DNA of 41,908 bases from positions 1 to 41,908 of the forward strand of contig JAHDVP010000044.1 of NCBI GenBank assembly GCA_023384575.1, written 5' to 3'. Position 1 is the first letter of the stretch, and every line of letters starts with the position of its first letter. Both the position numbers and the translations under genes were made by a program. This stretch comes from Acidobacteriota bacterium. GTDB taxonomy: Bacteria > Acidobacteriota > Vicinamibacteria > Vicinamibacterales > JAFNAJ01. A model generated the notes under the pieces. That model was not told where the DNA came from. It was given only the letters and a program-made list of their open reading frames with translations, and did not search any database. Below are positions 20,178-40,866 of the stretch, piece after piece.

Positions 20178-20209
20178 CCGCCGCCGGCCCGCGCGGGCCA
20201 GGAGACGTG

Positions 20210-20470: not shown

Positions 20471-20479
20471 GGCGGCGCG

Positions 20480-21854: not shown

Positions 21855-21862
21855 AGGACACC

Positions 21863-22288: not shown

Positions 22289-22317
22289 TCGGCGGCCGCG
22301 CTCAACGGAGGAGGGGT

Positions 22318-23329: not shown

Positions 23330-23332
23330 CCC

Positions 23333-26300: not shown

Positions 26301-26986
26301 TCGGCCTCGGCCAGGGCATGACGTCGCTGCACAACCTGGGGCTGCTCAATCAGGACACCTACGGTGGGCTGACGGAGCTGATGGGGACAGGCTTCTCGAG
26401 CCTCACCGACAAGGGGTTTGATGTCCACCAGATCATGACCCTCTGGCGGAAGCCGCTCCAAACCGCGTGGGAGCTGCAGCAGGACTTCGGGTTCGAAACG
26501 GACGAAACGACGCAGTCGCTCATCGACCAGGCCGAGTCCTCTGGCCTCATTGGCGATAAGTTCCGGCCGGCTGCGGATCGCATGGCGGCGGGCATTGACA
26601 AACTGGTGGCGCGGCTCGACGAGTTCTTGTCGCGCCTTACTGGCGGCGTCACTGAGGAGGCCCAGACCGCCGCCGGCGTCCTGGTCGACACGTTCACCAA
26701 CATGCGGATGCCGACCGTCCGCGTGCCGGTGATCTTCGACGTGGACGACTCTCCGGGATCAGGTGGCGCCGTGGTGCACGTGCCGGGCGCGGCGCGCGGC
26801 GGCATCGTGGCCCGGCCGACGCTGCTCGTGGCCGGCGAGGCCGGGGCCGAGGCGATCATCCCGCTCGATCAGCTCAGGTCCGTCGTCGGCGCGGGTGCTG
26901 GCGACGTGTACTTGGACAGCGAGAAGGTGGGGCGGGTGATCTGGCGCGAGGGCGCGACGCGGTTCGGGGCCGCGGGAGCCTGGTGA
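23333..26986 (+). CDS. Tape measure protein
   Basis: A 1217-aa tail length ruler. An N-terminal coiled coil (ARTMAAAVDQVGGASKLTNA and onward) leads to a TP901-type phage-tail domain: GLTLPIVGAGTAAIKMATDF, NRSMANVASLIPGNT, GKSTDDLSAGLYTVISAFGD, TTTDAITLTSAVTKGYGDTS and the FSTQLRG-like SEVSTQLRGVLQSLL. Hydrophobic stretches follow (TATVAVAAFAAGGPLLLALS; LLVSGAGLVAGSGALLAGAI). The C-terminus has ARGGIVARPTLLVAGEAGAE, the usual G.p.lv.G.aG.E ending. At about 0.15 nm per residue the tail would be roughly 180 nm. GTG start. Confidence 0.93.
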   Translation: MANVSTFTANFEPFDRALKAAEPRLNAFEQTTKRVKASLQRMVSDVDGTKVVSQARTMAAAVDQVGGASKLTNAELARMRPTVEEAVAKLKRLGQEVPPEIAKLNTAIQRSRVDLEKLGSLAGSAGKALTVGLTLPIVGAGTAAIKMATDFNRSMANVASLIPGNTARVLELKRSVQDLAIETGKSTDDLSAGLYTVISAFGDSADSARVLEINAKAAAAGLATTTDAITLTSAVTKGYGDTSAEAVAQVSDLAFAAVRLGQTTFPELAQAIGRVVPLSAELTVSQQELFGVMATATGVTGRASEVSTQLRGVLQSLLAPTADMAKLYQALGVESGRALLEQRGLQGAIEAIVDTARQSDLPLQKFISSIEGQTLALALAGPQADTFTAKLAQMRGSAGETNRAFREQTEGVNAAGFQWDQFQQRVAVAAQRLGDRLVPAATKVLETLTPIGRKALELIDRFGELPAPIQKTATVAVAAFAAGGPLLLALSGTITAVHTLKNAITALYSVQVLGGLSSLASRILAVKSAALLVSGAGLVAGSGALLAGAIAYRATPAAPPPAAAYDFARESQGQRPTNIGGARGLIALDLQALQTLAREYQTVGRTAGVELGKAERATRQLLVATRQVVTAWTVPIAARPDTIGHLLFGRDLGSLNARFEKLFAQPSVTQGDLVGPAVRESVWRSLFGSPQQMGAALSSTVLQAVTGGGNVSRALGAGLGGQLASGVAQSLTREGGKLAGTALGGALGAALPVVGSLAGAAIGGLVNKFFGPSKGAIAGKQADADIKALQDRLLQTYGSIDNIRKIGGAAGAALADAWGSKNVQGLAHFQRLLANFEGTLAAVRTDIEALARTSAAGELVSPELLQRLLGQQDNADVQAALAAFQGSQRDAGVAGLGGFVAARAELGDLADTVLPLTERSALAAGAALAAFFEEFDSPVAALQAMGPSLASWQAQLDGAGLSGGAAFAHISAMASLATDEIGGPVTSAVLGLGQGMTSLHNLGLLNQDTYGGLTELMGTGFSSLTDKGFDVHQIMTLWRKPLQTAWELQQDFGFETDETTQSLIDQAESSGLIGDKFRPAADRMAAGIDKLVARLDEFLSRLTGGVTEEAQTAAGVLVDTFTNMRMPTVRVPVIFDVDDSPGSGGAVVHVPGAARGGIVARPTLLVAGEAGAEAIIPLDQLRSVVGAGAGDVYLDSEKVGRVIWREGATRFGAAGAW

Positions 26987-28719
26987 TGGCGCGCACGCTC
27001 CTGATCGCCGGCGCTGACTGGACCGACGAGCTCGAGGCCGGCCGTCTGTCGTTCGAGGGGGCCCTTGGGGCGATCGGCCTGATGACGTTGCGGCTGATCG
27101 ACCTGACCGCGACGAAGCGGCCCGCGGTGCTCAACGAGGTCCTCTGGAGCGACGACAGCACCCCGCTGTGGCGTGGCGCCATCCAGTCGCTTGAGGAGAC
27201 GAACACCGGGTTCGACGACGGCGAGAAGGGCGGCCGTGGGTGGATCCTGAAGGCGGCTGACCTGGAGGAGATTCCCCGGCGCGAACCCGTCAACACGACC
27301 TATCCCGAGGGGCAGACGCTGAAGCAGGTCGTCACCGACCTGGCGACGTTACTGGGCGGCTACGACATCACGGTGGATACGGGCATGGCGGACGGCCCAA
27401 CCTTGCCGGCGCTCAGCTTCGCGTTCATCTCACTGGCCGAGGCCTTCGAGCAGCTCGCCGTCCTCTCCGGCTGGACGTTCACGATCGGCCCCGACCGGGT
27501 GCTGCGCGGCGCGATTCCGGGCAGCGCCGCGTTTCCGCACACCATCACCAGCGACCACGTAGACCTCGAGACCGTCCGACGGATCGACCAGCGCGGCGCC
27601 TATCAAAACCTCGTGCACCTGCTCTACGGGCCCGAGGGTGAGTGGCGCGACCAGACAGAGGTGTTCGCCGGCGACGGCAGCACGCGCAACTGGACGCTCG
27701 CCTACGTCGGCGGGGCGATGCCGGGCACGGTGACCATTCTCCTCAACGGCGATCCCGACGATCTGGTCATCAAGCCGCTCGGCGTGTACGGCGACGGGAC
27801 CGCCTGGCAGTACCGGGCGAGTGACCACACGCTGCACCAGGCGGAGACCGAGCTGGTGCTCGGCGCGACCGACCTCGTGCAGATCACGTACAGCGTGCCG
27901 TACCCGCAGCACGTCGTGGCGGCGGACTGGGACGAGGTCGCCCTCGTCGGGCGCTACGGCATGCCCGTGGAGTCCGCGCCGACGATTACCGATCGGACCA
28001 CGGCCGCGGCGTACGCGGTGGGGCTCGTGCGGCGGCGGGTCAAGGCCCGCTCGCCCCGCGCCCGCCTGACCGTGTGGTCGCTGGGCTGGGCGCGCGGCCA
28101 GACGGGCCCGATCGACATCCCGGAGCGGGGCTTGTCGGGTACCTGGCTCATTGAACGCGTCCGCACGGAGTACGTCGGCGCCGACGCGCATCCCATCCGC
28201 ACAACCCTCGAGGTGGTGAGCAGCGATGAGGCCCTCGGCGACTGGCAGACCTTCTGGGTGGCGCGCCTGGCGCCAGGGGGCGGCCGGGCGATGAGCGGCG
28301 GCGGGGTCATCAGCGGCGGCAGCGCGGGCGTGGCCAGCGGCCGCCACTACATTGACCTGGGGGGCTCGCGGCTCGTCAGCCTCGGCACGGACCTGCCGGC
28401 GCAGGTGCCGCTTTCCGAGGGGCGGGAGGTCACGCTCTATGAGGATGACTTCCCGGACGGGATCGCGCGGGTCGTGGCGGCGGTCGCGACTCGGCACGCC
28501 GCGACGAGCGTCACGCCGGTGCTCACCTACTGGACGGGATCCGCGTGGGCGACGGCGGCCGGCAGCGGCGCGCCGGGTGTGGGCAGTCCGTCGACGTCGA
28601 CCACGTTCGGATCTCCACAGACCTTCCTCGCGCGCGTGCAGCACGGGAAGCGCCATCGACTCGAGCTCCTGCGCTCGAACACGACGCACGAGGCGTACGG
28701 GATGGGGTACATCGAATGA
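26986..28719 (+). CDS. Tail hub / baseplate-like protein
   Basis: A 577-aa protein directly after the tape measure. The N-terminal half (EVLWSDDSTPLWRGAIQSLE, FDDGEKGGRGWILKAADL, LKQVVTDLATLLGGYDITVD, EAFEQLAVLSGWTFTIGPDR) is the pattern of tail hub or Tal-type proteins, in which a hub barrel is followed by a small domain with W.i.....l. Middle: Gly-rich linker (AMSGGGVISGGSAG). C-terminal domain: beta-rich. ATG at 26986 overlaps the tape-measure stop; GTG at 26983 is the alternative. Its stop overlaps the next gene. Confidence 0.75.
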   Translation: MARTLLIAGADWTDELEAGRLSFEGALGAIGLMTLRLIDLTATKRPAVLNEVLWSDDSTPLWRGAIQSLEETNTGFDDGEKGGRGWILKAADLEEIPRREPVNTTYPEGQTLKQVVTDLATLLGGYDITVDTGMADGPTLPALSFAFISLAEAFEQLAVLSGWTFTIGPDRVLRGAIPGSAAFPHTITSDHVDLETVRRIDQRGAYQNLVHLLYGPEGEWRDQTEVFAGDGSTRNWTLAYVGGAMPGTVTILLNGDPDDLVIKPLGVYGDGTAWQYRASDHTLHQAETELVLGATDLVQITYSVPYPQHVVAADWDEVALVGRYGMPVESAPTITDRTTAAAYAVGLVRRRVKARSPRARLTVWSLGWARGQTGPIDIPERGLSGTWLIERVRTEYVGADAHPIRTTLEVVSSDEALGDWQTFWVARLAPGGGRAMSGGGVISGGSAGVASGRHYIDLGGSRLVSLGTDLPAQVPLSEGREVTLYEDDFPDGIARVVAAVATRHAATSVTPVLTYWTGSAWATAAGSGAPGVGSPSTSTTFGSPQTFLARVQHGKRHRLELLRSNTTHEAYGMGYIE

Positions 28720-31202
28720 CCGTCAGGCGCGGGCTTCCGATCACGATCATCAGTCTCCTCCTGAGCGCGCCCGCCTGGGCGCAGGGGGGCAGCGGGCAGA
28801 CGCTGGAGATCGGGCGGCTCCGGCTGCTGGCGCCGCCCGCGAAGACGAGCGAGACGGCGTGCTTGTGGCGCGATGCGTCGACGGGCGACGTCGTCGTCGG
28901 CCCGTGCGGCACGGTGACGAGCGTCGGCCTGTCGATGCCAGCGATCTTCACGGTCTCGGGGTCACCCATCGAGACGAGTGGCACGCTGACGGCGAGCCTG
29001 GCCACGCAGACCGGCTGGTCCGTCTGGCGGGTGCCGGATGGCTCGACGGCGGCGCCGGCGTTCGGCGCGCTCGCGAAGGGCCATCTGCCGAGCGTGACGG
29101 CGTACCGCGACGACAGCATCATCCCCACGACGGGCTACGCGCACAGCATCGGCGCAGTGGCGACCAAGTATCTGTCGGGTCACTTCGCCGAGCTGGAAGT
29201 CGGCACGCTGGTGGCGGTGGAGCGGGCCGCGACGGTGGGCGGGCGCTGGCTCGTCGGGCCAACGACGACGCTCATCGCGGATCTCACCGACAGTGCGACC
29301 AGCATCGACGTCAAGCACAACAACCTCAAGAGCGGTGACCGCGTGCAGATGGAGTCGGCCGGCCAGTACGAGATGGTGGCCATCACGTCGGCGCCGACGA
29401 CGATCACCGGCGGGTTCCGCTACTCAGTGACGCGCAATCTGGACGGCACCGGGGCGAACGCCTGGGTGGCGGGCGATGCGGTGTTCGCCGGGGCCGCGCA
29501 AGCCGGGGAAGGGTTCGTGAGCGCGTTTGCCGACCGCTCGGCGCTCGCGCAAGGCTACGCTGGGCACGTCGTCGGCCGCCTCCCCAGGCACTACTGGCGC
29601 TTCACGTCGTCGGGCACCGTCGCCACGCCGACCGTGGGCGCCCTCACGTTGCCGCTGACGGCACGAGGACTCTGGGGAAGTGGCTGGGCGACGGGGGACG
29701 AGGGCGGGTCGCTCTACCGGGACAGCACGGTGTCCAGCGACGTCGCCGCGACGCAGACGGGCATCAACGCCACGCTGGACGGGACGCGGTCGATCACTGT
29801 GGCGTTCTTTCTCGCGAAAGGCGGGGGCTCGGCGATTCCGACGGCCGCGACCATCGTCCGCACGGGGGCCACGTCGGACGCGACCGCCGGCTGGCGCGTC
29901 GACAGCGACTTCACCGCGAACACCTCACTGCGCCTGACCGTCGGGAACGGGAGCAGCCGACAAAGCCTTCTGGCGTCCAGTGCGCTCGCGAACGACGGCG
30001 CCTGGCGTCACTACGTGGCGGTGATTGACCGTGAGGCCGGCGCGCTGCGGCTCTACGTCAACGGGGCCCTCGCGACCAGCGCGACCCTGACGCTCACGGG
30101 TGACTTCACGTCGACGGGCAATGTGCTGGACGTGCTGTCGATGGACCAGACGAACCTCGATGAGCTGACGATCTGGCACCGGGCGCTGTCGGCGGCCGAT
30201 GTGGCCGCGCTCTACGCGGCGCGGCTCTCGGTGTTGTCGACGACGGCCGCAGGGCCGACGCTGGAAGGCCTGGTCCGCACGGGCAGCGATCCGGGCGCGG
30301 TGGGGACCCGGTGGGTGGTCGGGAACCTGCTGGGCCGCTGCGGCTACACGGCGACGACCTATGGCTTCGTCGCCGGCGACTGCGACGCCACCTGGGTGTC
30401 AGTCGACGCGACGCACGGGTTCCGCGTGATGTCTGGCGCCGCAGAGCGGCTGACGGCCGACACGAGTGGGACTCTGTCGCTCACGGGCGATCTGGTCATG
30501 GGCACCGCTGGCGTGTTCCGCAGCGGCGCGACGGCCTTCGGCACGGGCACCGGCCTCTGGATGGACCACAACGCGGGCACGCCACGCTTCCGCGTCGGCA
30601 ATCCGAGTGGCAACAACCTCGAGTGGAATGGCACGAATCTCTGGATTCGCGCGGGGAACTTCACCGTCGACACCAACGGCATTCAGATCGAAGCGTCCGG
30701 GGGGTCGATGGCGGGGCGGTCCTACAGCTTCTCGAACGTCGGGTCGGGGTCCTCGGTGCAGTTCGGCACGCTCACGAGTCTCGGGACGCGGATCACGACG
30801 ATCGAATCCTTGATCGGGTCAACCGGGGCGACCAGCTTCGATCTCAAGGCGGGCGAGGCCAGCGGGACGCAGACGCGGATCGCGATCGGCACGAACAGCA
30901 GCAGTGTCGGGTTCGTGGAGATCCACCCCGCGGGCACCGGGGCCACCGTGGCCATTCGCAATGGCGCTCTGGTCCCCTATACCACCGACGTCGAAGAGTT
31001 GGGATCGACGTCGCGGAAGTGGGGCAAGGTCTTCATGGCCCAACGCACCACGTCGGATGCGTTGGGCCCGGTCGTCTCGAACAACGGCGAATTGCTGGTG
31101 AAGTCGAACGGCCTGAACACGACGACGACCTGCGCGGGCGCACAGCGGGTGTCGGCGGTCACCACGCAGTACGGCATCGTGACGGCCATCACGTGCAGCT
31201 AG
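28716..31202 (+). CDS. Fiber-like protein with signal peptide and LamG domain
   Basis: An 828-aa protein. Residues 1-22 form a clear signal peptide (MTVRRGLPITIISLLLSAPA, then WA), with Gln at +1. Next comes a beta-rich fiber region (SIGAVATKYLSGHFAELEVG), then a LamG/concanavalin-like domain at about 290-500 (NATLDGTRSITVAFFLAKGG; NDGAWRHYVAVIDREAGALR; NLDELTIWHRALSAADVAAL). A tail-fiber end follows (NGIQIEASGGSMAGRS, and EELGSTSRKWGKVFMA). Position after the hub says tail fiber; the signal peptide says export. It overlaps the hub gene (ATGA). Confidence 0.7.
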   Translation: MTVRRGLPITIISLLLSAPAWAQGGSGQTLEIGRLRLLAPPAKTSETACLWRDASTGDVVVGPCGTVTSVGLSMPAIFTVSGSPIETSGTLTASLATQTGWSVWRVPDGSTAAPAFGALAKGHLPSVTAYRDDSIIPTTGYAHSIGAVATKYLSGHFAELEVGTLVAVERAATVGGRWLVGPTTTLIADLTDSATSIDVKHNNLKSGDRVQMESAGQYEMVAITSAPTTITGGFRYSVTRNLDGTGANAWVAGDAVFAGAAQAGEGFVSAFADRSALAQGYAGHVVGRLPRHYWRFTSSGTVATPTVGALTLPLTARGLWGSGWATGDEGGSLYRDSTVSSDVAATQTGINATLDGTRSITVAFFLAKGGGSAIPTAATIVRTGATSDATAGWRVDSDFTANTSLRLTVGNGSSRQSLLASSALANDGAWRHYVAVIDREAGALRLYVNGALATSATLTLTGDFTSTGNVLDVLSMDQTNLDELTIWHRALSAADVAALYAARLSVLSTTAAGPTLEGLVRTGSDPGAVGTRWVVGNLLGRCGYTATTYGFVAGDCDATWVSVDATHGFRVMSGAAERLTADTSGTLSLTGDLVMGTAGVFRSGATAFGTGTGLWMDHNAGTPRFRVGNPSGNNLEWNGTNLWIRAGNFTVDTNGIQIEASGGSMAGRSYSFSNVGSGSSVQFGTLTSLGTRITTIESLIGSTGATSFDLKAGEASGTQTRIAIGTNSSSVGFVEIHPAGTGATVAIRNGALVPYTTDVEELGSTSRKWGKVFMAQRTTSDALGPVVSNNGELLVKSNGLNTTTTCAGAQRVSAVTTQYGIVTAITCS

Positions 31203-31210
31203 GAGGATCG

Positions 31211-31675
31211 ATGGAGAGACGGCGACGCGACAGGCTAGCGGCTGTGGTCCTTGTGGGGGTCCTCGCGCTCGGCGCCATCGGACAGGCGCAGACGATCCGT
31301 CTGCCGCCGTGCGCGGCCAACGAGCAGACCTCGCACGCGTACGCGGAAGTCTTGAGCGGGCAGCCTGGTACGGCCACCTACATTCGCGTGTTCAATCCGT
31401 TCGGCGCGGCGCAGGACGTGGTGGTGCGCACCTGGCACGCGGCGACGGGCGAGCAGCGCTGGACGCAGGTGGCGGTACCGCCGCTGCGGAGCGTCGTGGT
31501 GCCCGTCTGGTCGCTGTGGGCCGGGGAAGTCATCGTGTCGGTGCAGGTGATCTGGCCGGTCGGTTTCGGCGGCGCGACGACGGTCTCGCAGTGGACGAAC
31601 GCGCACACCGCGGCGACCGATAAAGTGCCGACGGTCATCTGTCGCGCCTACGGGCCGATGGGGGCCAGCTCATGA
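31211..31675 (+). CDS. Exported beta-rich protein
   Basis: A 154-aa protein. Signal peptide MERRRRDRLAAVVLVGVLAL GAIGQA (residues 1-26), cleaved before Gln. The mature part (GTATYIRVFNPFGAAQDVVV, then RSVVVPVWSLWAGEVIVSVQ) looks like a single beta-sandwich. It has two Cys that could form a disulfide outside the cytoplasm (PPCAAN and VICRAY). AGGAGG is well placed before the ATG. It overlaps the next gene by 4 bp. The family is not recognised. Confidence 0.7.
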   Translation: MERRRRDRLAAVVLVGVLALGAIGQAQTIRLPPCAANEQTSHAYAEVLSGQPGTATYIRVFNPFGAAQDVVVRTWHAATGEQRWTQVAVPPLRSVVVPVWSLWAGEVIVSVQVIWPVGFGGATTVSQWTNAHTAATDKVPTVICRAYGPMGASS

Positions 31676-32061
31676 TCTGGTGGCGGGCGGCGGTGGCAAC
31701 TGGGAGCCTCGTCTGCTGGCTGGCGGGCGGCGCGCCCCTCCTCGCGCAGCCCGTGCCCACGACGCCGGCAGTCCCTACCGAGGCGCCGTCGCCCGCCCCG
31801 GATCTCCCGAGCGACGAGGTGCTCGTGTTGCGCGCCGAGCTGCTGCGCCGCGAGGCCACGATGCTCGACCTCCGCCGGCAGCTCGCGCTCGAGCGCGCGG
31901 GACTCGGCCAGGCGGCCGACCAGGCGCTCGCCGAGCAGGCCGACCAGCTCGAACGGCTGTTTCGCGCCGTGCGGCAGCCGCCCGCGGGTGCGGTGTGGGA
32001 CTGGCAGACGTTGACGTTCCGGGACCCGGCCCGGGGCGACCCGCCGGAGGGGCGGGACTGA
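31672..32061 (+). CDS. Exported coiled-coil protein
   Basis: A 129-aa protein. Residues 1-25 form a signal peptide ending PLLA before Gln26. A Pro/Thr-rich linker (PTTPAVPTEAPSPAPDLPSD) is followed by a helix with heptad pattern (VLVLRAELLRREATMLDLRR, then QLALERAGLGQAADQALAEQ), probably a coiled coil. The end holds VWDWQTLTFRDP. A coiled coil anchored in or exported through the inner membrane near the lysis genes recalls spanins, but there is no partner lipoprotein and this is only a suggestion. Confidence 0.6.
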   Translation: MIWWRAAVATGSLVCWLAGGAPLLAQPVPTTPAVPTEAPSPAPDLPSDEVLVLRAELLRREATMLDLRRQLALERAGLGQAADQALAEQADQLERLFRAVRQPPAGAVWDWQTLTFRDPARGDPPEGRD

Positions 32062-32067
32062 GACCGG

Positions 32068-32133
32068 CTCCTCCCCTGGGCGCGGCCTGATCAGCCACGC
32101 GACGACGCCTCGAGGCCCGAGGCGGGGGAGGAG
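32068..32133 (+). other. Long stem-loop in the gap before the zinc-ribbon mini-gene
   Basis: Outer arms ctcctcccc (32068-32076) and ggggaggag (32125-32133) are perfect complements. An inner hairpin cgcctcg / cgaggcg (32106-32112 and 32118-32124, loop aggcc) stacks directly on the 3' arm. With the next hairpin (32152-32193) it makes the whole 137-bp gap structured; the gap may serve as terminator for the upstream genes or as a regulatory leader. Confidence 0.45.
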
Positions 32134-32151
32134 ACAGGGGCCGGCGGGCAG

Positions 32152-32193
32152 AGGCCTCCCGCTTTGCGTGGCGACACGCGAGTGTGGAGGCCT
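32152..32193 (+). promoter_or_regulatory. Hairpin that sequesters the Shine-Dalgarno of the zinc-ribbon mini-gene
   Basis: aggcctcc (32152-32159) pairs perfectly with ggaggcct (32186-32193). The 3' arm contains GGAGG, the ribosome binding site of the ATG at 32199. Inside is a second hairpin gcgtg-gcga-cacgc with a GNRA-type loop. The arrangement would keep the site closed until the stem is opened. Confidence 0.5.
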
Positions 32194-32198
32194 TTGTC

Positions 32199-32393
32199 AT
32201 GTCGGCGGCGGCGGAACCAGTGCCAGGGGACACCGGCGCGCGCTGCGAGCAGTGCGGGAACGAGGATCCGCGGTTGATCGACGACGTGCCGGACCTCCGA
32301 CGGCGCTACTGCGACGTCTGCGGGGCCTGGTGGAGCGACACACGATGGCCGAGCCAGATGACCGGCGCGGAGATACGGCGGGACGACGCATGA
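32199..32393 (+). CDS. Zinc-ribbon mini-protein
   Basis: A 64-aa protein with two CxxC pairs (ARCEQCGNEDPRLIDDVPD and RRYCDVCGAWWSD), a compact zinc ribbon. The start is ATG 32199, 8 nt after GGAGG; a longer in-frame GTG form at 32184 would overlap that site. Short zinc ribbons of this kind can be nucleic-acid or protein adaptors. Its translation start is enclosed by a hairpin. The stop overlaps the start of the next gene. Confidence 0.65.
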   Translation: MSAAAEPVPGDTGARCEQCGNEDPRLIDDVPDLRRRYCDVCGAWWSDTRWPSQMTGAEIRRDDA

Positions 32394-32815
32394 GCGACAC
32401 GCTGAGTGCTGACGAGATCAGGCGCCTCATCGACGCCCCGGTGCAGCGCGCGGACGAGGACCGTCAGGAGTGGCGGGCTCGCCTCGAGGCGCTGCGCGCG
32501 GACGTGCAGACGCTGACCCGGAGCGTCGACGGCGTGGGCGGGAAGCTGGACGGCGTCAGTCAGCGCCTCGAGCGGCTCAACCTGAAGCTCGACGATCACG
32601 GCAAGGCGATCGCCGACCACGAGACGCGGGTCACTGTGCTGCAGACGCAGGTCGAGCCGCTGCTGGGGCTTCCGAGCGCCGTGCGGGAGCAGCGGAAGTC
32701 GCTGGAATCTCTGGAGCGCACGGTGGGCCTGCTCGTCTCCGGCGCCCGGTGGGCGGTGCTCTTCGTGCTGTCGGCCGTCGGCCTCGCCGTGTTGCGGCAG
32801 GTGCTCGTGCAATGA
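32390..32815 (+). CDS. XhlA-like coiled-coil membrane protein (lysis accessory or holin)
   Basis: A 141-aa protein. A long coiled coil (EEIRRL-like DEIRRLIDAPVQRADEDRQE, EALRADVQTLTRSVDGVGGK, DGVSQRLERLNLKLDDHGKA) is followed by a C-terminal membrane segment (ARWAVLFVLSAVGLAVLRQV). This is the architecture of XhlA-type proteins, membrane-bound lysis partners of holins. It is directly followed by the endolysin, whose ATG overlaps its TGA, which strongly supports a lysis role. Whether it is the holin itself is open. Confidence 0.7.
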   Translation: MSDTLSADEIRRLIDAPVQRADEDRQEWRARLEALRADVQTLTRSVDGVGGKLDGVSQRLERLNLKLDDHGKAIADHETRVTVLQTQVEPLLGLPSAVREQRKSLESLERTVGLLVSGARWAVLFVLSAVGLAVLRQVLVQ

Positions 32816-33243
32816 GCGCCGGACCCTCGCGCCACCTCTCGTGGGCCGAGCTCGCGTGCCAGGACGCCGCACGGACCCCGTATCCGCTCGCGTGGCGGAC
32901 GACCCGCGCGGTGGTGCTGGCGCAGGAGTTCGAGGTCATCCGCGACCGCTGCGGGAACCATCCGCTGCGGATCGGCTCCGCGTACCGCACCCCGGAGCAC
33001 AACCGCCGGGTGGGCGGGAGTCGGGCGAGTCAGCACGTCGAAGGCCGCGCGCTCGACCTGTACCCGCCGCGCGGGTGGGACCTGGACCGGTTCTTCGCCG
33101 TCGTGCTGGCGTGGGCGCGGGACGAGCGCTCGGCCATCCACGGGGTCGCACGCTACCCGTGGGGCGTGCACATCGACATTCGCCCGGGCCCGCGGCTGGT
33201 GCGCTGGGAAGGAACGCGCGCGTGGGCAGAACGCAAGACGTGA
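32812..33243 (+). CDS. Endolysin, peptidase M15 type
   Basis: A 143-aa protein. HLSWAELACQD opens the domain; RIGSAYRTPEHNRRVGGSRA, SQHVEGRALDLYPP and the final YPWGVHIDIRPG contain the zinc ligands of the M15A family (His and Asp of SQH..G.A.DL, His of G.H.D). It would cut the peptide cross-links of peptidoglycan. No signal peptide, so it needs a holin. Length fits a single-domain endolysin. Confidence 0.9.
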   Translation: MSAGPSRHLSWAELACQDAARTPYPLAWRTTRAVVLAQEFEVIRDRCGNHPLRIGSAYRTPEHNRRVGGSRASQHVEGRALDLYPPRGWDLDRFFAVVLAWARDERSAIHGVARYPWGVHIDIRPGPRLVRWEGTRAWAERKT

Positions 33244-33590
33244 CGGGTGCGTGGGAAGACCCTGCGGATCGGGCGATGCGCCTGCTGGATGCGGCGTTGA
33301 CGCTCGTCGACGCGGCCGAGCGGGCGCGGGCGGTCGCGGAAGGGGAGCGAGAGGTGTGGCGCCAGGCGCACGACGCGCTGGTCGCCCAGGTCAGCCGGCG
33401 GCGGATCGCCGGGACCGAACGGCAACAACGGCAGTGGACGCCCGAGCGACGGGCGCGCCAGAGCGCGGCCATCCGGCGCGCCTGGCAGGAGGGGCGATAT
33501 GCGAGTGACGCGAATGGTGGCCCTGGTGATGGGTCTGCTGGTCCTGACGGCCAGCGGCACCTGGGCGCAGACCTCTGTGACGGGCAGTGA
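33222..33590 (+). CDS. Hypothetical protein after the endolysin
   Basis: A 122-aa protein. The body is helical (ADRAMRLLDAALTLVDAAER, VWRQAHDALVAQVSRRRIAG) and ends with RQWTPERRARQSAAIRRAWQ, a basic helix reminiscent of the short NUMOD-like or AP2-linked motif s.e.r...s.a.r..W. It overlaps the endolysin and, by 92 bp, the next exported protein; such an overlap is unusual and the last 30 residues may not be natural. GTG at 33240 is another possible start. Confidence 0.5.
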   Translation: MGRTQDVTGAWEDPADRAMRLLDAALTLVDAAERARAVAEGEREVWRQAHDALVAQVSRRRIAGTERQQRQWTPERRARQSAAIRRAWQEGRYASDANGGPGDGSAGPDGQRHLGADLCDGQ

Positions 33591-33888
33591 GCGGCTGGGA
33601 TGGGACCAGGCGGCGAGCGACGTCGGCGTGCTCGGGTGGCTCGTGTCGATCGATGGCGGGCCCGGCGTGGCGCTCGCGGACGTGACCTGCGAGGCCGCGG
33701 GGCCTGGCGCCTATACCTGCGCCGCCGCGTTCCCCGCGTTGACGCCTGGCGTGCACGAGCTGCGCGTGGCGGCCTACGAGGACGTCGGCGCGACGCGCTT
33801 GCAGTCGGAATGGTCGGTGCCGCTCGCGGTGCGGCTCGTGGTCGTGCCGGCGGTCCCGACGGCGCTCCGGGTCGTGCCGGGGACCTGA
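33499..33888 (+). CDS. Exported Ig/FN3-like protein 1
   Basis: A 129-aa protein. Signal peptide residues 1-23 (MRVTRMVALVMGLLVLTASG then TWA), Gln at +1. The mature part is one beta-sandwich: GWLVSIDGGPGVALADVTCE, TPGVHELRVAAYEDVGATRL and SEWSVPLAVRLVVVPAVPTA, the strand order of FN3-like domains (y.l.vDG..., C, ...pG.H.l.V.A....g...wS.p). Two Cys (VTCEAA, AYTCAA) may pair. It shares this layout with 37917-38300 and the N-terminus of 38307-40331. Confidence 0.65.
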   Translation: MRVTRMVALVMGLLVLTASGTWAQTSVTGSERLGWDQAASDVGVLGWLVSIDGGPGVALADVTCEAAGPGAYTCAAAFPALTPGVHELRVAAYEDVGATRLQSEWSVPLAVRLVVVPAVPTALRVVPGT

Positions 33889-33952
33889 GCGCGCTCCGGG
33901 CGGTGCTCGAGCCGGAGGTGCGCTGGATGCTCACGGCGCACGGGAGCTACTG

Positions 33953-34192
33953 ATGGCGATGCTGGACGACGTCCGGACCCGGGTGATTCGCGAGGCGCAC
34001 GTGCACGCGACGCGGCTGGCGGCGTGTCCGCGCCCGCACGACTTCGTCGATTTGCCAGGCCGGCAGGATGGCCTCCAGTGGGCCCGGTGCCGGCACTGCC
34101 TGGGTGAGGTGAACGCGGTCCACGCCGAGTGGTATCGCCGAGGCGTGCGCGACGCGGAGCGCGCCGCGCTGAGGCAGAAGGTGACGTCGTGA
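33953..34192 (+). CDS. Hypothetical Cys/His-containing small protein
   Basis: A 79-aa protein. RLAACPRPHDF and WARCRHCLGEVNAVHAEWY place three Cys and several His in a possible zinc site; flanking regions are helical (DDVRTRVIREAHVHATRL; YRRGVRDAERAALRQK). Not recognised. The 64-bp gap before it holds nothing convincing beyond a short tail frame. The GTG of the following large gene overlaps its stop. Confidence 0.6.
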   Translation: MAMLDDVRTRVIREAHVHATRLAACPRPHDFVDLPGRQDGLQWARCRHCLGEVNAVHAEWYRRGVRDAERAALRQKVTS

Positions 34193-37173
34193 GCGACTAC
34201 TGGTTCCCTTCGGTTGACGGGTCCGGCCGCGTGGCGGCCGGCGCGGGCCGCGTGGTGCTGCGCCAGCCGGACGGCACCGAGCAAGTCTGGTCGGACGTCC
34301 ATCGGCCATGCTTTGTGCTGCGCGGTGCGTTGAGCCTGGTCGCGAATGGCACCGGGAGCCGACCGGCGGGGGTCTATCAGTGCGCGCCAGATGGCACGGT
34401 GGCGCCGTTCCAAACGTCGGCCGGGCCGGTCTGGGGCGCGAACGACCTCGCGGTGGGGGACGGCTGGGTGGCCTCGGCGAATGCCGGCCAGCGCGCCATC
34501 ATGGTCTGGCCCTCCGGCGCCATCATCGACGACGCCGGCTCGCCCTCGATCTGGGGCTCGTCGCTCGTCTGCATCAAGCATCCGTGGGACGAGCGTCGGC
34601 ACCTCGCCCTGAACCCTACGGCCCGTGGCGAGGCCGACCGGCCGTACCTGCGGCTGGCCGAGGGCGACGTCCGCATGCCACGGCTCGTCGAGGACCTCGT
34701 CGCGTGGTGCGTCGGCACGACGCCGTGGTTCCGTTGGCCGTCCGGCACGCTCGGGCCCGTCCCACTGGGACGCGACGAGTTCTGGCCGGTGCCCGTCTAC
34801 ATTGGCGGGCGCCCGTACCTCCTGACGCACGACCACTACCAGCACCTGATGTTGCGGGAACCAGGCAGGACCGTCGGGCACCTCGTGCACCGTGGCGTGA
34901 CCGACTACCCGGCGATCGCGCGCGTCGGCGACCGGGACTCCGACGAGGTGCATGTCGCGTGGAGCGCGGAGGGCGTGCTTGGCGAGTGGCGCGGGCGGGT
35001 GCGCGACCTGCCGCTCGTCGACCTGACGGACCTGCGCGAGCTCGACCCGGCGCGGCGGTTCCCACCCCGCACGCTCGTCGACGTCCCGGACACCATCGAC
35101 GTCTTCGGTGCGCTCTGCGGGCGTGAGCGCTGGACGCGCGGGCCGGAGTTCGAGGCGGGCGGCACGGGCCACGTGATGCAGGGCGACCAAGGCGCTGGTC
35201 ACGGCACGTTCGCCACGGTCACCAAGGGGCGCCACGACCCCGAACAGCGGGAGGTCTGGGTCGAGGGCGCACACGGCGTCGGCCTGGCGTTCGACCGCAG
35301 CAATGAGATCGACGGCGGGTATCGGCTCGTCAACCCCGGCACGGACGACACCGCCGTGCTCTACCCGTCCCAGATGAGGGCGGGCGACGAGCGCCGGACG
35401 CCCGTCGAGGTGCTGCGGGTTCGTGACGGCCACCGGGCGCGCTACACGTTCCTCGGCCGGTGCCTCCAGGTGGGCCGCGACGAGGCGGGCCACCTGCACG
35501 GCGTGTTCAGCTACGAGTTCGACTCCGAGGGCGGGTGGCGCGAGCTGTTCTTCGGCCACGAGCGCGCGGGCCGCTGGGAATGGCGCGCGATCCGGAAGCG
35601 CACGGGCGAAGTGACCGACGTGTGGACGGGTCTCGTCGAGCGCGCGCCGGTCGCCATCGCGCCCGTGCCGGCGGCCTACCAGCGGCCCCCGGTCGCGCTC
35701 CCGCCTGGTCCGCCAGACCCACCGGTCACACTGACCGTCGGTCGCGCGGACTACCCCCGTGAGATCACGCCGGCGGGATTCGACGTGATGTTCGAGGATG
35801 GCGCCGGCCGGCTCCGGGCCGAGTGGTCGGTGCGCGATGGCCAGCGGTCGGTCTTCGCGCTGACGCTCGACGGGCAGCGCGCGACGCGCACGGTCGCGCA
35901 CCCGACAGTGATCGGCGTTGCGCCTCCGGGTACCCCGCCCGCGGCCGGGGGGCCCGCCTACGGGCCCTGGGTCCTCGAACGGCCGAGCGAGTACACGCGG
36001 CTGCGCGAGGCCGTCGAGGCGAAATGGTCACTCAGCGACCAGGCGACCAGAGACGAGAAGCTGGCGCACGCCATCAAGCGGCGGTTCGAGGCGCACGAGC
36101 TGGCGAAGATCCTCGACGAGATCGCGCGGGAGGGCGAGGAGTCTCCGCCGGATGTGGAGCCCCCACCTGTCGACCCGCCGCCTCCGCCGTCTGGCGACGT
36201 CTGGTGGACCCGCCAGGACATCATCGACTGGCGTGGCGGCATTGCCTTCGACGAGGAGCTGTTCAGCCCGTTCTACCTGTCCTGGGACGCCGAGCGGCGC
36301 CGGCGCTTCCGCGCGCGCTGCAAGGCGCTGGGGGCGACGCACGTCATCGTCATGCTCTCGGGCGAGTACCGGGGGCGGTTCCCCTGGTTCAGCCTCTGGG
36401 GCCGCGCGCAGACCAGCCGGGTGCTCGACCTGCTCGGCGAGCTGCTTGCCGATCGCCTGATGCCGGTGCTCTGGGCGGCGAACGGAGAGAGCTTCACGGC
36501 AGGGGCGCGGCGGATCGACGCGACCGACCGCGCGGCCGGGACGCCGCTGAACGTGTTCCTGGTGGGCGCCGGCGACATGTTCGCGCGGCGGGTCGGGCAG
36601 CCGCTCGAGGCGATGTGGGACGAGAGCCTACCGCCGCTCGCGCCGGTCCTCGGCGCCGCCATGCCGGCGCCGGAGATGAACGACATCTGGACACCCGAGG
36701 AGCAGCACCATCGCACGGTCCTCCTGCGTCGGCTGCTGCCGTCGACCTATCTCCTCGTCCACTTCACGCGCGCCCGGTCGCACGGCGACCACAATCGCGG
36801 GACGGGGCCAGTGGGGCAGCCCCCGCCGGAGTGGAACCCGGTGCCCGACGACAACAACCCCGGGTTGTTGCGGGTGAGGCTGCCCGACTACTGGCGGGCG
36901 ACCCCGGTCGAGGGCCTGTACTACAACGCCCCGTACCACCACCTCGAGGACCTCGCGGCGTTCACCGACGACCTGGGCGACGTGAGCGTCAGGGTGAACG
37001 GCCGCGTGCCCGTGCCGGGCAAGACGGCACCCTACCCCGGCATGGGTCGTGATGTCATCTACGGCGAAGGCCCCGCGGAGTGGGTGCTACAGGGCCACTG
37101 GACGTGGCAGGACGGCCAACGGCTGCGCGAGGCGGCCCTCTCAGTGCCCGGTATCACGGGCTGGGGAGACTGA
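34189..37173 (+). CDS. Large two-part protein: propeller-like N-terminus, TIM-barrel-like C-terminus
   Basis: A 994-aa protein. The N-terminal about 500 residues contain repeated short strands of the SGR/PDGT/W type (SVDGSGRVAAGAGRVVLRQP; PVWGANDLAVGDGWVASANA; TRGPEFEAGGTGHVMQG), suggesting a beta-propeller. A Pro-rich linker (PPDVEPPPVDPPPPPSG) near residue 660 leads to a domain with alternating strands and helices (ARCKALGATHVIVMLSGEYR, GELLADRLMPVLWAANGESF, LLRRLLPSTYLLVHFTRARS, EGLYYNAPYHHLEDLAAF), like a glycosidase-type barrel. Proteins of this kind act as receptor-binding or capsule-degrading tail spikes. No signal peptide. GTG start overlaps the previous gene. Confidence 0.6.
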   Translation: MSDYWFPSVDGSGRVAAGAGRVVLRQPDGTEQVWSDVHRPCFVLRGALSLVANGTGSRPAGVYQCAPDGTVAPFQTSAGPVWGANDLAVGDGWVASANAGQRAIMVWPSGAIIDDAGSPSIWGSSLVCIKHPWDERRHLALNPTARGEADRPYLRLAEGDVRMPRLVEDLVAWCVGTTPWFRWPSGTLGPVPLGRDEFWPVPVYIGGRPYLLTHDHYQHLMLREPGRTVGHLVHRGVTDYPAIARVGDRDSDEVHVAWSAEGVLGEWRGRVRDLPLVDLTDLRELDPARRFPPRTLVDVPDTIDVFGALCGRERWTRGPEFEAGGTGHVMQGDQGAGHGTFATVTKGRHDPEQREVWVEGAHGVGLAFDRSNEIDGGYRLVNPGTDDTAVLYPSQMRAGDERRTPVEVLRVRDGHRARYTFLGRCLQVGRDEAGHLHGVFSYEFDSEGGWRELFFGHERAGRWEWRAIRKRTGEVTDVWTGLVERAPVAIAPVPAAYQRPPVALPPGPPDPPVTLTVGRADYPREITPAGFDVMFEDGAGRLRAEWSVRDGQRSVFALTLDGQRATRTVAHPTVIGVAPPGTPPAAGGPAYGPWVLERPSEYTRLREAVEAKWSLSDQATRDEKLAHAIKRRFEAHELAKILDEIAREGEESPPDVEPPPVDPPPPPSGDVWWTRQDIIDWRGGIAFDEELFSPFYLSWDAERRRRFRARCKALGATHVIVMLSGEYRGRFPWFSLWGRAQTSRVLDLLGELLADRLMPVLWAANGESFTAGARRIDATDRAAGTPLNVFLVGAGDMFARRVGQPLEAMWDESLPPLAPVLGAAMPAPEMNDIWTPEEQHHRTVLLRRLLPSTYLLVHFTRARSHGDHNRGTGPVGQPPPEWNPVPDDNNPGLLRVRLPDYWRATPVEGLYYNAPYHHLEDLAAFTDDLGDVSVRVNGRVPVPGKTAPYPGMGRDVIYGEGPAEWVLQGHWTWQDGQRLREAALSVPGITGWGD

Positions 37174-37175
37174 CG

Positions 37176-37514
37176 ATGCCGGATGATCTCTACTCGGCGC
37201 TCGACCCCGGCATTCGAGACATCGTGCGCCTCCTCCATGGCGCCGGTTTCGTCACCACGGACTCTGGGGATGGCGTCACGAAACCGCCAGATGAGCGCAC
37301 GTTCGACGTGCCGCATGTCGTGTGCCGCGTCGACGATCATCAGCGGCTCATCAAGGAAGCGTTTCGTCTCTGGCGCACGCTTCCGGTCGGCTGGCGCGTC
37401 GAAGCGAACTTCTGCCCACACGATCGCGTGGCGCTGCTCGTGGCGGAGTATCTACCAGGCGGGGAAGCGAGGACTGACGATGCACCACCTGAAGCCACCG
37501 ACACCGTTTGCTGA
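37176..37514 (+). CDS. Hypothetical phage protein
   Basis: A 112-aa protein. SALDPGIRDIVRLLHGAGFV, TTDSGDG and VEANFCPHDRVALLVAEYLP have a mixed alpha/beta character; the G-F-x-T-x-D-S-GDG pattern with a later D...A.L recurs in small phage proteins of unknown role. It starts 3 bp after the previous stop and partly overlaps the next short gene. Not further assignable. Confidence 0.65.
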   Translation: MPDDLYSALDPGIRDIVRLLHGAGFVTTDSGDGVTKPPDERTFDVPHVVCRVDDHQRLIKEAFRLWRTLPVGWRVEANFCPHDRVALLVAEYLPGGEARTDDAPPEATDTVC

Positions 37515-37668
37515 CGCGCTCGCGCTGCAAACCGTCGAGGCGTTCGTCGAGCGCGTCACCGCGCGCGTGGAGACGATGCGCGAGTCGTTCGCCTACGCGC
37601 TGCGCGCCGAGCTCACCGCCTGGCGCGAGGCCGTGCCGGAGGAAGCGAAGGAGGCCCCATGCGACTGA
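37480..37668 (+). CDS. Hypothetical helical small protein
   Basis: A 62-aa protein, mainly one or two amphipathic helices (ALALQTVEAFVERVTARVET, MRESFAYALRAELTAWREAV). gagg precedes the ATG by 7 nt. It overlaps the ends of both neighbouring genes, consistent with a packed operon. A coiled-coil interaction role is possible; unknown. Confidence 0.6.
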   Translation: MHHLKPPTPFADALALQTVEAFVERVTARVETMRESFAYALRAELTAWREAVPEEAKEAPCD

Positions 37669-37898
37669 CGCGGGACAGCTCCGAGGTCTGGGCGATTGCG
37701 GCCGGCGTCGCGCTGTTTGGGTATCTGGCCTGGGCCGAGGCGCCGCCGTGGGAGTGGACGTACCCGCAGTGGGTGCAGTTTGGATCGGCGGTCTTCGCCT
37801 GGCTCTCCGGCCGGGCGGCCAACTCGTTCCGGTTCCTCGAGCCGCCCAGGGCGCCTCGACCGACCACGTCGCCGGCAGGCGACCCAGGACGCGGCTGA
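37659..37898 (+). CDS. Small membrane protein, holin candidate
   Basis: A 79-aa protein with two hydrophobic segments: WAIAAGVALFGYLAWA (about residues 11-26) and QWVQFGSAVFAWLSGRAANS (about 37-56), separated by the PPWEWTYP turn. The two-pass small protein with a W-E-W-x-Y-x-Q-W motif is found in siphophages near lysis or fiber genes and is sometimes called a holin. It is 4.4 kb from the endolysin, so the holin role is less certain than for the XhlA-like protein. Confidence 0.55.
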   Translation: MRLTRDSSEVWAIAAGVALFGYLAWAEAPPWEWTYPQWVQFGSAVFAWLSGRAANSFRFLEPPRAPRPTTSPAGDPGRG

Positions 37899-37916
37899 CG
37901 CCGCACAGGAGTAGAC

Positions 37917-38300
37917 ATGCGACGACGAGTGCTCTGCCTCTTCCTCTTGCTGGCGATTGCGGGGCCGGTGGCCGCGCAGGAGACGCCGATCCCGCCGCCG
38001 ACCGGCCCGGTGGTGTTCTGCGGCGAGCAGATCGCGCCGACGGCGGACACGTATGCGCTGATGTTCGACGGCGGGGCGCCGGAGGCGCTGACGATGGACG
38101 CGGCGGTGGAGCCGGCGTGTCCGGTGGGGACCACGCATTCCTTCCGCGTGCCGGCGGCGCGGTTCACGGTGGGCCAGCACACGCTTGCGGTCCGTGCGAC
38201 GAACGCGTACGGCACGACGGACGGGCCAATCTACACCGTGACGGTGGGGATTGCGCCTGGACCGTTTTCGATCACGGCGGTCATTCCGCCGGGGGCGTAG
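37917..38300 (+). CDS. Exported Ig/FN3-like protein 2
   Basis: A 127-aa protein. Signal peptide residues 1-20 (MRRRVLCLFLLLAIAGPVAA), Gln at +1. A Pro-rich start is followed by one beta-sandwich: TYALMFDGGAPEALTMDAAV, ACPVGTTHSFRVPAARFTVG, HTLAVRATNAYGTTDGPIYT, an FN3-type layout (y.l..DGg......, C, ...l..G.Htl.VrA.N.yG...gp). Two Cys may form a disulfide. It resembles 33499-33888 in size, export signal and strand motifs. Confidence 0.65.
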   Translation: MRRRVLCLFLLLAIAGPVAAQETPIPPPTGPVVFCGEQIAPTADTYALMFDGGAPEALTMDAAVEPACPVGTTHSFRVPAARFTVGQHTLAVRATNAYGTTDGPIYTVTVGIAPGPFSITAVIPPGA

Positions 38301-38306
38301 GGGTGC

Positions 38307-40331
38307 ATGCGTCGGCTGATCGTCGCCGGGTGGCTGGCGCTGGCGTCGGCGGGGGGGGTGTCGGCGCAGACGCCGCGCCCGGTCACGGTCCTGTGGGATC
38401 TCGACGCCTCGCACGAGGGCGTGACGACGTGGGAGATCGACGCGGACGGGGTGACGGTCGCCTGCACGGACGTGGCGGTCGTCGGCGAGGCGCGTCAGTG
38501 TGGGGCGGCGCTGCTGCCTGGGACGTACGAGGCGTTCCGGCTGCGCGGGGTGGCGGCGTCGTGCGGCGATCCGGTGGTCGCGCCGTGTCCGGGGGGCTGG
38601 TCGGCGCCGATAGCGGTGACGGTGCCGTCGGCCGACGCGCCGGGCACCTTCATCATTCGCGCGGCGCGGGCGCCGCCGCCTGAGGAGCCGAGCATGCTGC
38701 TGCTGTACGTGAACTTCGAGGCGGGGCCACCAGGCGGAAGCACGTATACCCTGGGCGCGACGGAGCATTCGGCCGGGTCAGATGCCCTCGAATTGCAGTT
38801 CACGTTTGGCGGCGCGATCAACGCCACGGGGGCGACGGTCGGCAGCTACGGCGTCCAGACCAGTGGATTCAACTGCGGCGTGCGATTGCCCGCATCGAGC
38901 GGGGACGTCTGGCCACGTGATGCGGGCCGCGTCGGCTGGTGGGTGACGTTCGACGGCAGTAATGATGTGGCGCTGTTCACGTCGGTCGACTCCTCCGTAC
39001 ACGTGGAAGTCCGGAGCAACGGGAATCTCCGTCTGTTCTGGGGTGGGTCGTTTCTACTCGCGACGGGCGATTACAGCTCATTCATTCCGACGGATCGCAC
39101 GCCGGTCTTCATTGAGCTCAAGTGGGACCGGACGAACAACCTTCGCGCGTTGCGCTTTTCGACGGACGGCGCGGCCGGCACCTGGCGCGAGAATACCGAC
39201 TCATGGACGCAACCGGCCCACGCGACGTACGTCAGGTGGGCCGGTGAGTACGGCGCGGCGTACTTCGACAATTTGATGATCTCGGACGACCCCGATGAAG
39301 ACCTCTACGCGCTGCGGAACCTCACGGATTACGCAGACTACGGGGGTGGCGGCGGCGGCCAGACCTACAACGAGGCGCTGTCGCTCGCGGCGGCCGCAGA
39401 CCTGGCCCCCAGCGGCTCGCTGGTGATGAGTGCGACGCAAGCGCTGTCCGCCTCGGCGGCGCTGGCCCCGTCGGCCGCGCTCGTCATCGGCGCCACCGTC
39501 GCGCTCGCCGCCGACGCCGCGATCACGACGCCCTCGCAGGCGGCGCTCGCCGGCACGCTCACCCTGCCCGCGGCGGCGGCCCTCACGCCGACGAGCACCG
39601 CCGCCCTCGTGGCGACGCTCGCCCTCCAGGGTGCGGGCGGGCTGGGGGTCACCTCGCAGGCCACGTTGGGCGCCGCGCTGGCCCTGCCCGCCGAGGCTGG
39701 GCTTGGCGTCACCTCGCAAGCCACGCTGGGCGCCTCGCTGGCTCTGCCTGCGGCGGCGGGGCTCGGCGTCGTCTCCCAGGCGACGGTCGACGCCGCGCTG
39801 GCGCTCGTCGCCTCGGGCACGCTGACGCCGGCCGGTGCCGTCGTCGCGCAGGCCGTGCTCGCGCTCGGCCTCGAAGCGGGCTACGTCACCAGCGCGCAGA
39901 TCGTCGGGGCGCCCGAGACGCACCACGAGACGCTGGCGCTCGCCGCCGCGGCGGGCCTCGAGCTCCAGGCCACGGGCCTTCTCGGCGCCGTGCAGGCGTT
40001 TGCCGCGGCCGCAGGGCTGACCCAGGACGGCGCGACCGTCATCGGGCGCGCCCTCGCCCTGGCCGTCGAAGCCGACCTCACGACGGCCGCGCAGGGCGTG
40101 CTGCGGCCGACGCTGGCGCTTCCCGTCGACGCCACACTCACGAGCCAAGCGCAGGCGCAGCTCGTCGCCCTGCTGACGCTCTCGGCGGCGGCCGTGCTCG
40201 CCCAGGCGGCGCAGCTCCAGGGCGTCATCACGTACGACGTCCTCAAGGTCGCGGCGGAGACCCTGCGCGCCGCGGCCGTGACCCACGAGACCCTGCGCGC
40301 CGCGCGGGCGCTCGACGAGACCCTTCACTGA
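38307..40331 (+). CDS. Exported fiber-like protein with Ig-like domain and 20-residue repeats
   Basis: A 674-aa protein. Signal peptide 1-20 (MRRLIVAGWLALASAGGVSA), Gln at +1. About 25-125: FN3-like domain related to the two other exported Ig-like proteins (TTWEIDADGVTVACTDVAVV; GWSAPIAVTVPSADAPGTFI). About 130-345: LamG/jelly-roll-like domain (SGDVWPRDAGRVGWWVTFDG; RTPVFIELKWDRTNNLRALR; YGAAYFDNLMISDDPDED). After GGGGGG, residues about 350-640 are roughly a dozen 20-residue repeats of the type xL..sSqA.L.A.LaLpaaA. The end repeats ETLRAAA. Possible roles: adhesive stalk of the tail or a secreted surface fiber. Confidence 0.65.
   Translation: MRRLIVAGWLALASAGGVSAQTPRPVTVLWDLDASHEGVTTWEIDADGVTVACTDVAVVGEARQCGAALLPGTYEAFRLRGVAASCGDPVVAPCPGGWSAPIAVTVPSADAPGTFIIRAARAPPPEEPSMLLLYVNFEAGPPGGSTYTLGATEHSAGSDALELQFTFGGAINATGATVGSYGVQTSGFNCGVRLPASSGDVWPRDAGRVGWWVTFDGSNDVALFTSVDSSVHVEVRSNGNLRLFWGGSFLLATGDYSSFIPTDRTPVFIELKWDRTNNLRALRFSTDGAAGTWRENTDSWTQPAHATYVRWAGEYGAAYFDNLMISDDPDEDLYALRNLTDYADYGGGGGGQTYNEALSLAAAADLAPSGSLVMSATQALSASAALAPSAALVIGATVALAADAAITTPSQAALAGTLTLPAAAALTPTSTAALVATLALQGAGGLGVTSQATLGAALALPAEAGLGVTSQATLGASLALPAAAGLGVVSQATVDAALALVASGTLTPAGAVVAQAVLALGLEAGYVTSAQIVGAPETHHETLALAAAAGLELQATGLLGAVQAFAAAAGLTQDGATVIGRALALAVEADLTTAAQGVLRPTLALPVDATLTSQAQAQLVALLTLSAAAVLAQAAQLQGVITYDVLKVAAETLRAAAVTHETLRAARALDETLH
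39366..40220 (+). repeat. 60-bp coding tandem repeats (20-residue units)
   Basis: About a dozen units of 60 bp, one with 63 and one with about 75. The best conserved neighbours are at 39639-39820, encoding GLGVTSQATLGAALALPAEA, GLGVTSQATLGASLALPAAA and GLGVVSQATVDAALALVAS. Leu, Ala and the small residues keep a fixed register, as in a solenoid of short strands. Outer copies have drifted, so the array is old at its edges and recently amplified in the middle. Confidence 0.8.
40257..40304 (+). repeat. 18-bp direct repeat at the 3' end of the repeat protein
   Basis: gagaccctgcgcgccgcg occurs at 40257-40274 and again at 40287-40304, encoding two ETLRAA units 10 codons apart. A third ETL ends the protein. 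The spacing differs from the 60-bp array, so this is a separate small duplication. Confidence 0.6.
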
Positions 40332-40347: not shown

Positions 40348-40866
40348 ATGGACCGATCCGAACAGCAGCTTCTGCAGGCCCGTGCCGAGACCAAGTACGT
40401 CATGGAGTGCTTCGGCGCCGATGGTGCGCTGAAGTGGCGCGAGGAGTTCCCGAACCTCGTCGTCACGGAGGGCCGGAACGCCCTGCTCAACGGCACGTTC
40501 GATGCGCCGGCCGGATCCGTGGCGTGGTATGTCGGCCTCGTCACCGACGGCGGCAGCAACAGCTACGCCGCCGGCGACACGCTCGCGTCGCACGCCGGGT
40601 GGGCCGAGGCGACCGGCTACACCGGCAACCGCAAGGTCTGGACGAAGAACGGCAGCGCCAGCGCCGGCAGCATGAGCAACTCATCGTCGCCGGCGTCCTT
40701 CGCGATCACCGCGAACGCGAGCATCGCCGGCGCGTTCCTGGCGAGCGCCGAGACCGGCACCGTCGGCACGCTCTACGGCGTCGGGGCGTTCACGGCCGGC
40801 ACGCGCGCGGTGCAGAACGGTGACACCTTGAACGTCACCGTCACGCCGAGCGTCACGGCCAGCTGA
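40348..40866 (+). CDS. Virion-associated protein, tail region
   Basis: A 172-aa protein. ETKYVMECFGADGALKWREE, NLVVTEGRNALLNGTFDA and WYVGLVTDGGSNSYAAGDTL, then SHAGWAEATGYTGNRKVW and AFTAGTRAVQNGDTLNVTVT, match a frequent phage pattern in which a short tail-associated beta protein has G..l.....f......w.vGLi.......A.DT..sH.GW.E. AAGGAG precedes the ATG by 8 nt. It probably belongs to the virion, but the exact role is unknown. It follows the repeat protein by 17 bp. Confidence 0.7.
   Translation: MDRSEQQLLQARAETKYVMECFGADGALKWREEFPNLVVTEGRNALLNGTFDAPAGSVAWYVGLVTDGGSNSYAAGDTLASHAGWAEATGYTGNRKVWTKNGSASAGSMSNSSSPASFAITANASIAGAFLASAETGTVGTLYGVGAFTAGTRAVQNGDTLNVTVTPSVTAS

Follow-up and report, generated by a model that had tools for sequence, protein, structure and literature searches.

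A tail fibre and five other proteins of an Acidobacteriota siphophage carry predicted export signals followed by glutamine

Signal-bearing genes at and around the tail fibre locus

The window analyzed here is the whole of contig C44 (JAHDVP010000044.1, 41,908 bp) in the 5.9-Mb genome of an Acidobacteriota bacterium (G000), and it comprises the complete 41.9-kb genome of a temperate HK97-like siphophage, with a 50-bp host tRNA-Leu repeat at both ends. Six of its genes, including the tail fibre gene, encode proteins with a predicted cleavable signal and with glutamine (Gln) as the first residue after the cleavage site (+1). These genes and the tail-tip gene next to the fibre are listed below, with slashes at the cleavage sites read in the sequence.

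26983..28719, + strand: tail-tip protein, directly upstream of the fibre; blastp homologues in G218, L191, L196, L203, G197 and G202
28716..31202, + strand: tail fibre, predicted cleavable signal residues 1-22, AWA/QG; LamG domain (Pfam Laminin_G_3, 2e-13); mature-chain cysteine (Cys) pairs 27/42, 520/534 and 784/805
31211..31675, + strand: small signal-bearing protein, GQA/QT; two Cys in the mature chain
31672..32061, + strand: small signal-bearing protein, probably a coiled-coil partner, LLA/QP; WDWQTLTF motif C-terminal; homologues downstream of the fibre
33499..33888, + strand: signal-bearing beta-sandwich protein, possibly FN3/Ig-like, TWA/QT; Cys 41/51
37917..38300, + strand: small signal-bearing beta-domain protein, VAA/QE; Cys 15/48
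38307..40331, + strand: fibre-like signal-bearing protein, VSA/QT; 33499-like N-terminal domain, beta-rich centre and long Ala-rich repeat shaft

All six open reading frames were confirmed. Signals were scored with a home-made scorer based upon a basic n-region, an uncharged hydrophobic core of 8-16 residues and permitted residues at -3 and -1, with the +1 residue ignored save for the exclusion of Pro. The resulting scores were 14.3 (28716), 15.9 (31211), 10.4 (31672), 14.9 (33499), 17.0 (37917) and 13.7 (38307), and the other 40 proteins of the window all scored <10. By this scorer the six have the basic n-region, hydrophobic core and AxA-type site of Sec/signal peptidase I (SPase I) substrates, with no lipobox flagged. 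An earlier note on this DNA had described six secreted proteins with Gln after the site; starts, sites and scores agree with it, and the LamG fibre architecture that it also proposed was borne out for 28716.

Shuffled N-termini reached a score ≥ 10.5 in 5.0% of trials for the six and 1.7% for the other proteins, and reached the threshold together with an xAQ motif in 0.7% and 0.15%, respectively; a chance origin of the signals was dismissed on these rates. The six genes all lie within the last 14 of the 46 genes (p=3e-4). The weakest signal is that of 31672, with Leu at -3, and its signal-bearing homologues have TVA/QAP and LSA/QVS. Since the scorer by itself cuts some of the six a few residues earlier (APA/WAQ, ASA/GGVSAQ), the exact cleavage site is a prediction. 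Judged by these sequence features, the six are probably genuine Sec/SPase I substrates, and their export is well supported.

The 28716 gene is encoded after the tape measure and tail-tip genes, and all of the tail-tip homologues listed above likewise stand immediately upstream of a fibre gene. The fibre ATG overlaps the tail-tip stop by 4 bases (ATGA) in the window, and the same 4-base overlap occurs in L155, L191 and L196, whose tail-tip genes are homologous to 26983. This coupling places the signal at the real N-terminus of a fibre-locus gene, and its occurrence in four phages excludes a mis-called fibre start. Fibre character is also seen in shaft homology to other fibres, in the LamG domain of 28716 and in a Peptidase_S74 domain at the C-terminal end of the signal-bearing G094 homologue, which matches phrog tail-fibre families. 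On sequence and placement, 28716 is taken to be the tail fibre of this phage at the canonical fibre locus. The 28716, 31211 and 31672 genes are joined to the late tail gene 26983 via overlaps or an 8-bp gap, shortly before the lysis genes. A spanin identity was set aside for 31672, which adjoins the lysis genes, because its homologues have a cleavable site and the copy in a related phage (G197) lacks any N-terminal hydrophobic segment.

The 33499 and 37917 proteins resemble each other and the N-terminus of 38307, and the three appear to be related domains. A model of the 33499 domain had a predicted local distance difference test (pLDDT) value of 65 with weak Foldseek matches to Ig/FN3 folds (best E 0.05), and an Ig-like fold of these three small beta-domains is plausible but weak. 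The model of the N-terminal half of 38307 had a pLDDT of 38 and gave no usable fold, and no relative of 38307 was found in 193 genomes of the host's class. The three proteins may be further exported binders.

The genes from terminase to tape measure are arranged in the usual order (terminase, portal, protease, HK97-like head protein, connectors, major tail protein, tape measure). Other features of the window are as follows.

1..50, no strand: attachment-like (att-like) direct repeat; exact copies at 41859-41908 and within host tRNA-Leu(CAG), G000:C3:51813-51862
830..1990, - strand: integrase (phrog_1, 9e-43)
14181..15818, + strand: terminase large subunit (phrog_9, 4e-147)
18528..19772, + strand: HK97-like major head protein (phrog_10, 2e-73)
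23333..26986, + strand: tape measure protein (phrog_991, 4e-51)
32330..32815, + strand: hemolysin/holin-like protein (phrog_1193, 4e-4; sequence), hydrophobic segment C-terminal
32812..33243, + strand: M15 peptidase endolysin (PF08291 1e-16, phrog_894 8e-19)
34189..37173, + strand: large protein without signal, 994 amino acids (aa), no family match
40348..40866, + strand: phage protein without signal (phrog_8123, 7e-20)
41859..41908, no strand: second copy of the att-like repeat, exact 50-bp match to 1-50

Host contig C3 has an intact tRNA-Leu(CAG) gene that contains the same 50 bases as the window ends. Given its terminal repeat and integrase, the window has the appearance of a temperate phage that has been excised or circularised, and the intact tRNA gene suggests that circular phage and empty or rejoined site are both in the assembly. 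The attachment site in tRNA-Leu(CAG) looks like a link between the phage and the G000 host. Gene calling left gaps at 33243-33499 and 37173-37668, where plausible small genes were seen (frames from near 33240, 37173 and 37483), so the late gene run is probably continuous. The 34189-37173 protein may act as an adhesin on the virion or as a hydrolase; its C-terminal part shows weak similarity to a protein of G202 (35% over 68 aa). At 9706-12122, a phrog_2045 protein of unknown function is followed by a DNA methyltransferase (phrog_116).

Conservation of the signal, the Cys pair and the +1 residue

Single-protein contig scans and cultured-phage searches with 28716, 26983, 33499 and 38307 gave few or no direct relatives, and relatives were instead recovered through alignments of shared modules. 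Signal-bearing fibre homologues were found in this way in G147, G094, G090, G079, L155, L157, L189, L191, L196, L200 and L203. Those from the host's class have the sites AWA/QPS (G147), AAA/QSI (G094, at a contig edge), LSA/E (G090) and ARA/D (G079). The signal is therefore kept in homologues from the host's class and from soil viral contigs, and it is more strictly conserved than the Gln, which is replaced by Glu in G090 and Asp in G079. In G079:C85 (L153/L181), terminase-like genes were seen together with two consecutive signal-bearing genes, the second being this fibre homologue.

A shaft-domain scan of viral contigs gave 25 loci, of which the closest (L155/L156 and L157) have a signal and +1 Gln. 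The remaining loci lack a signal, the marginal scores of L158 and L162 being judged not to be signals. The window fibre, with its predicted signal, departs from the cytoplasmically assembled type, in which a Sec signal is lacking; the signal is absent in G197 and in most distant relatives.

A second scan of viral contigs, for an N-terminal hairpin module, gave at least 80 loci. Its query alignment had three rows, one of which was a generic cysteine-free form of the module used only for widening the pattern. Among the matches listed, a Cys pair brackets the hairpin in L189, L191, L192, L196, L200 and L203, and each of these six fibres combines a signal with +1 Gln. After deduplication, signals were present in 5/5 of the listed matches with the pair versus 5/57 without it (Fisher p=4e-5). 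In annotated cultured phages the proteins that contain the module are tail fibres or minor tail proteins, and those examined have neither signal nor Cys pair. Within the window, the portal-to-tail-tip genes (16317-28719) encode virion proteins with 6 Cys in total, and the six signal proteins have 17, mostly paired.

Fibres of L247 (IMGVR_UViG_3300049215_000015), L214, L218 and L237 have a signal and +1 Gln without the pair, on contigs of 31-63% GC, and the class of signal-bearing fibres therefore probably has more than one origin, possibly one in Bacteroidetes phages. Further signal-bearing proteins were observed directly after the fibre of L196 (6499-6891, APA/QE) and at a viral contig end in G218:C1 (41614-42090, AAA/QT).

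The G197 phage, whose head protein (L035) is ~53% identical to that of the window, has at its fibre locus an 804-aa fibre without signal, with homology over the shaft (40% identity over 164 aa to the window fibre, 42% over 368 aa to that of G147). Homologues of 31672 stand downstream of the fibre in G094, G220, G218 and G197. Fibre and partner both carry signals with Gln in G094 and G220; both carry signals in G218, where the cleavage site of the partner is less clear, and in G197 the signal is absent from the partner too.

The +1 residue in the host was surveyed in 1.16 Mb of DNA, using 118 proteins that had a signal but neither a further transmembrane segment nor a lipobox. Gln was the most frequent +1 residue, at 15% (naive site choice) or 21% (expectation maximization, EM) versus 4% in the background, and a loose xA/Q motif was found in 39 of the 118 (33%) versus 6% in a control segment. 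At host rates the probability of Gln in all six phage proteins is 1e-3 to 1e-5, the six being not wholly independent because of the related N-termini of 33499, 37917 and 38307. Under the Bacteroidetes Q-rule, +1 Gln exceeds 48% in 332 of 334 species, with a mean of 71% (PMC5837995); in this host Gln does not follow the site in a majority of SPase I substrates. The Q-like rule that had been proposed for the host holds as a Gln bias (21% by EM versus 4%), not at Bacteroidetes strength. A search of G000 for the plant-type glutaminyl cyclase PF05096, which did not extend to the animal type, found none, and no type IX (Por) secretion C-terminal domains were found in the host.

Docking at lysis and other explanations

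Tailed-phage particles are thought to be assembled wholly in the cytoplasm. In the explanation that we favor, the 28716 fibre and its small coiled-coil partner 31672 would be made late, together with the products of the tail and lysis genes, and would then enter the periplasm and be cleaved to leave an N-terminal Gln. They would fold there under oxidizing conditions, and in several of the fibres a Cys pair would staple the N-terminal hairpin. Virions would meanwhile assemble in the cytoplasm without fibre and partner, and fibres would dock on the tail tip once lysis mixes the compartments. This proposal builds on sequence features, namely the signals, their synteny and conservation, their joint presence or absence on fibre and partner, and the tie between Cys pair and signal. 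Docking at lysis is favored because signal-less fibres swap in at one locus beside homologous tail-tip genes, and we put its probability a little short of even. The broader proposal, of a class of tailed phages that finishes virions outside the cytoplasm by mounting Sec-exported, disulfide-stapled fibres on fibreless particles at lysis, is made more tentatively.

Several points weigh against docking at lysis. The signal predictions depend on the home-made scorer, and the evidence that the two signals occur together or are missing together comes from five phages, one alone of which is without them. The hairpin of the window fibre is itself divergent, with the Cys pair retained (mature residues 27 and 42). 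Total Cys density did not differ significantly between signal-bearing and signal-less fibre homologues (p=0.28), and only the N-terminal hairpin pair, not overall Cys content, appears to track the signal. Homologues of 33499, 37917 and 38307 were not found in the sets searched, and their cooperation with the fibre is unsupported. No precedent for docking at lysis was found. With 34189 and 40348 as further candidate virion adhesins that lack a signal, the particle could do without the exported fibre.

The exported fibres may never join virions. They may act instead as free receptor-binding proteins, set loose when the cell lyses or by leakage from the envelope, and the decoy release that the earlier note also raised may take this form. 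They would then occupy receptors on debris or neighbors, sparing progeny from spent cells or excluding competing phages. This possibility, to which we give a rather low probability, fits nearly as well as docking at lysis: the signal evidence supports export, the fibre and FN3-like domains are plausible binders, and the adhesins of the virion could be 34189 and 40348. However, the fibre lies at the virion fibre locus, where a signal-less homologue replaces it in G197, and the signal-bearing fibre of G218 is the sole large fibre-like gene noticed there. The earlier note had the prophage dressing the host surface, and such lysogenic conversion, with secreted proteins expressed in lysogeny to dress or shield the cell, would suit a temperate phage with an integrase and att repeat; Porphyromonas gingivalis phages have secreted Q-rule proteins with a presumed role in modifying the envelope of their host (PMC10367356). 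The placement of the genes does not support it. The coupling of 28716-31675 to a late tail gene, ahead of the lysis genes, argues for late export over surface dressing, and a sigma-70 scan of the region, a method of low value for this host, showed no promoter-like site on the forward strand; we consider this explanation improbable. Least probable is that the hydrophobic N-terminal segments stay uncleaved, as virion parts such as a membrane-inserting fibre anchor, or arose by chance. A hydrophobic segment could serve membrane contact, and the 31672 score is weak, but N-termini that have diverged strongly still share permitted -3/-1 residues and +1 Gln, the signal goes with the Cys pair, and shuffled N-termini reach the score far less often.

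Since some relatives have the signal and others lack it, either the periplasm or the moment of lysis sees a virion part completed, or a fibre gene has turned into a secreted binder. Either outcome would alter the prediction and expression of soil-phage receptor-binding proteins (oxidizing folding, mature N-terminus), and natural pairs of fibres with and without a signal make the question testable.

Comparison with known systems

In the literature searched (open-access papers only), no canonical-locus tail fibre was found that has both a conserved export signal and a Cys pair linked to that signal. Small exported superinfection-exclusion lipoproteins of phages are known, namely Llp of T5 and Cor of the phi80 type. 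These are likewise phage-encoded exported proteins that could block receptors; they differ in being small lipoproteins, whereas a lipobox was flagged in 0/6 proteins here and two of the six are large and fibre-like. Hairpin fibres of the Peptidase_S74/GSPEG type (Gordonia phage Sour gp22, Klebsiella phage Eowyn 37_2) share the same modules and are tail fibre or minor tail proteins, but the annotated ones examined have no signal or bracketing Cys pair and are taken to be cytoplasmically assembled.

The Bacteroidetes Q-rule resembles the pattern described here in the enrichment of Gln right after the SPase I site, and differs in its strength (>48% in 332/334 species versus ~21-33% here) and in that plant-type glutaminyl cyclase was not found in G000. 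Secreted Q-rule proteins in tailed phages are already on record from P. gingivalis, whose phages (proposed Nixviridae) are tailed and temperate and have five genes of unknown function with an SPase I signal and +1 Gln (PMC10367356). Both systems are thus tailed temperate genomes encoding several SPase I signal proteins with +1 Gln; the P. gingivalis phages live in a Q-rule Bacteroidetes host, whereas here the host is not a Bacteroidete and the tail fibre gene itself is among the carriers.

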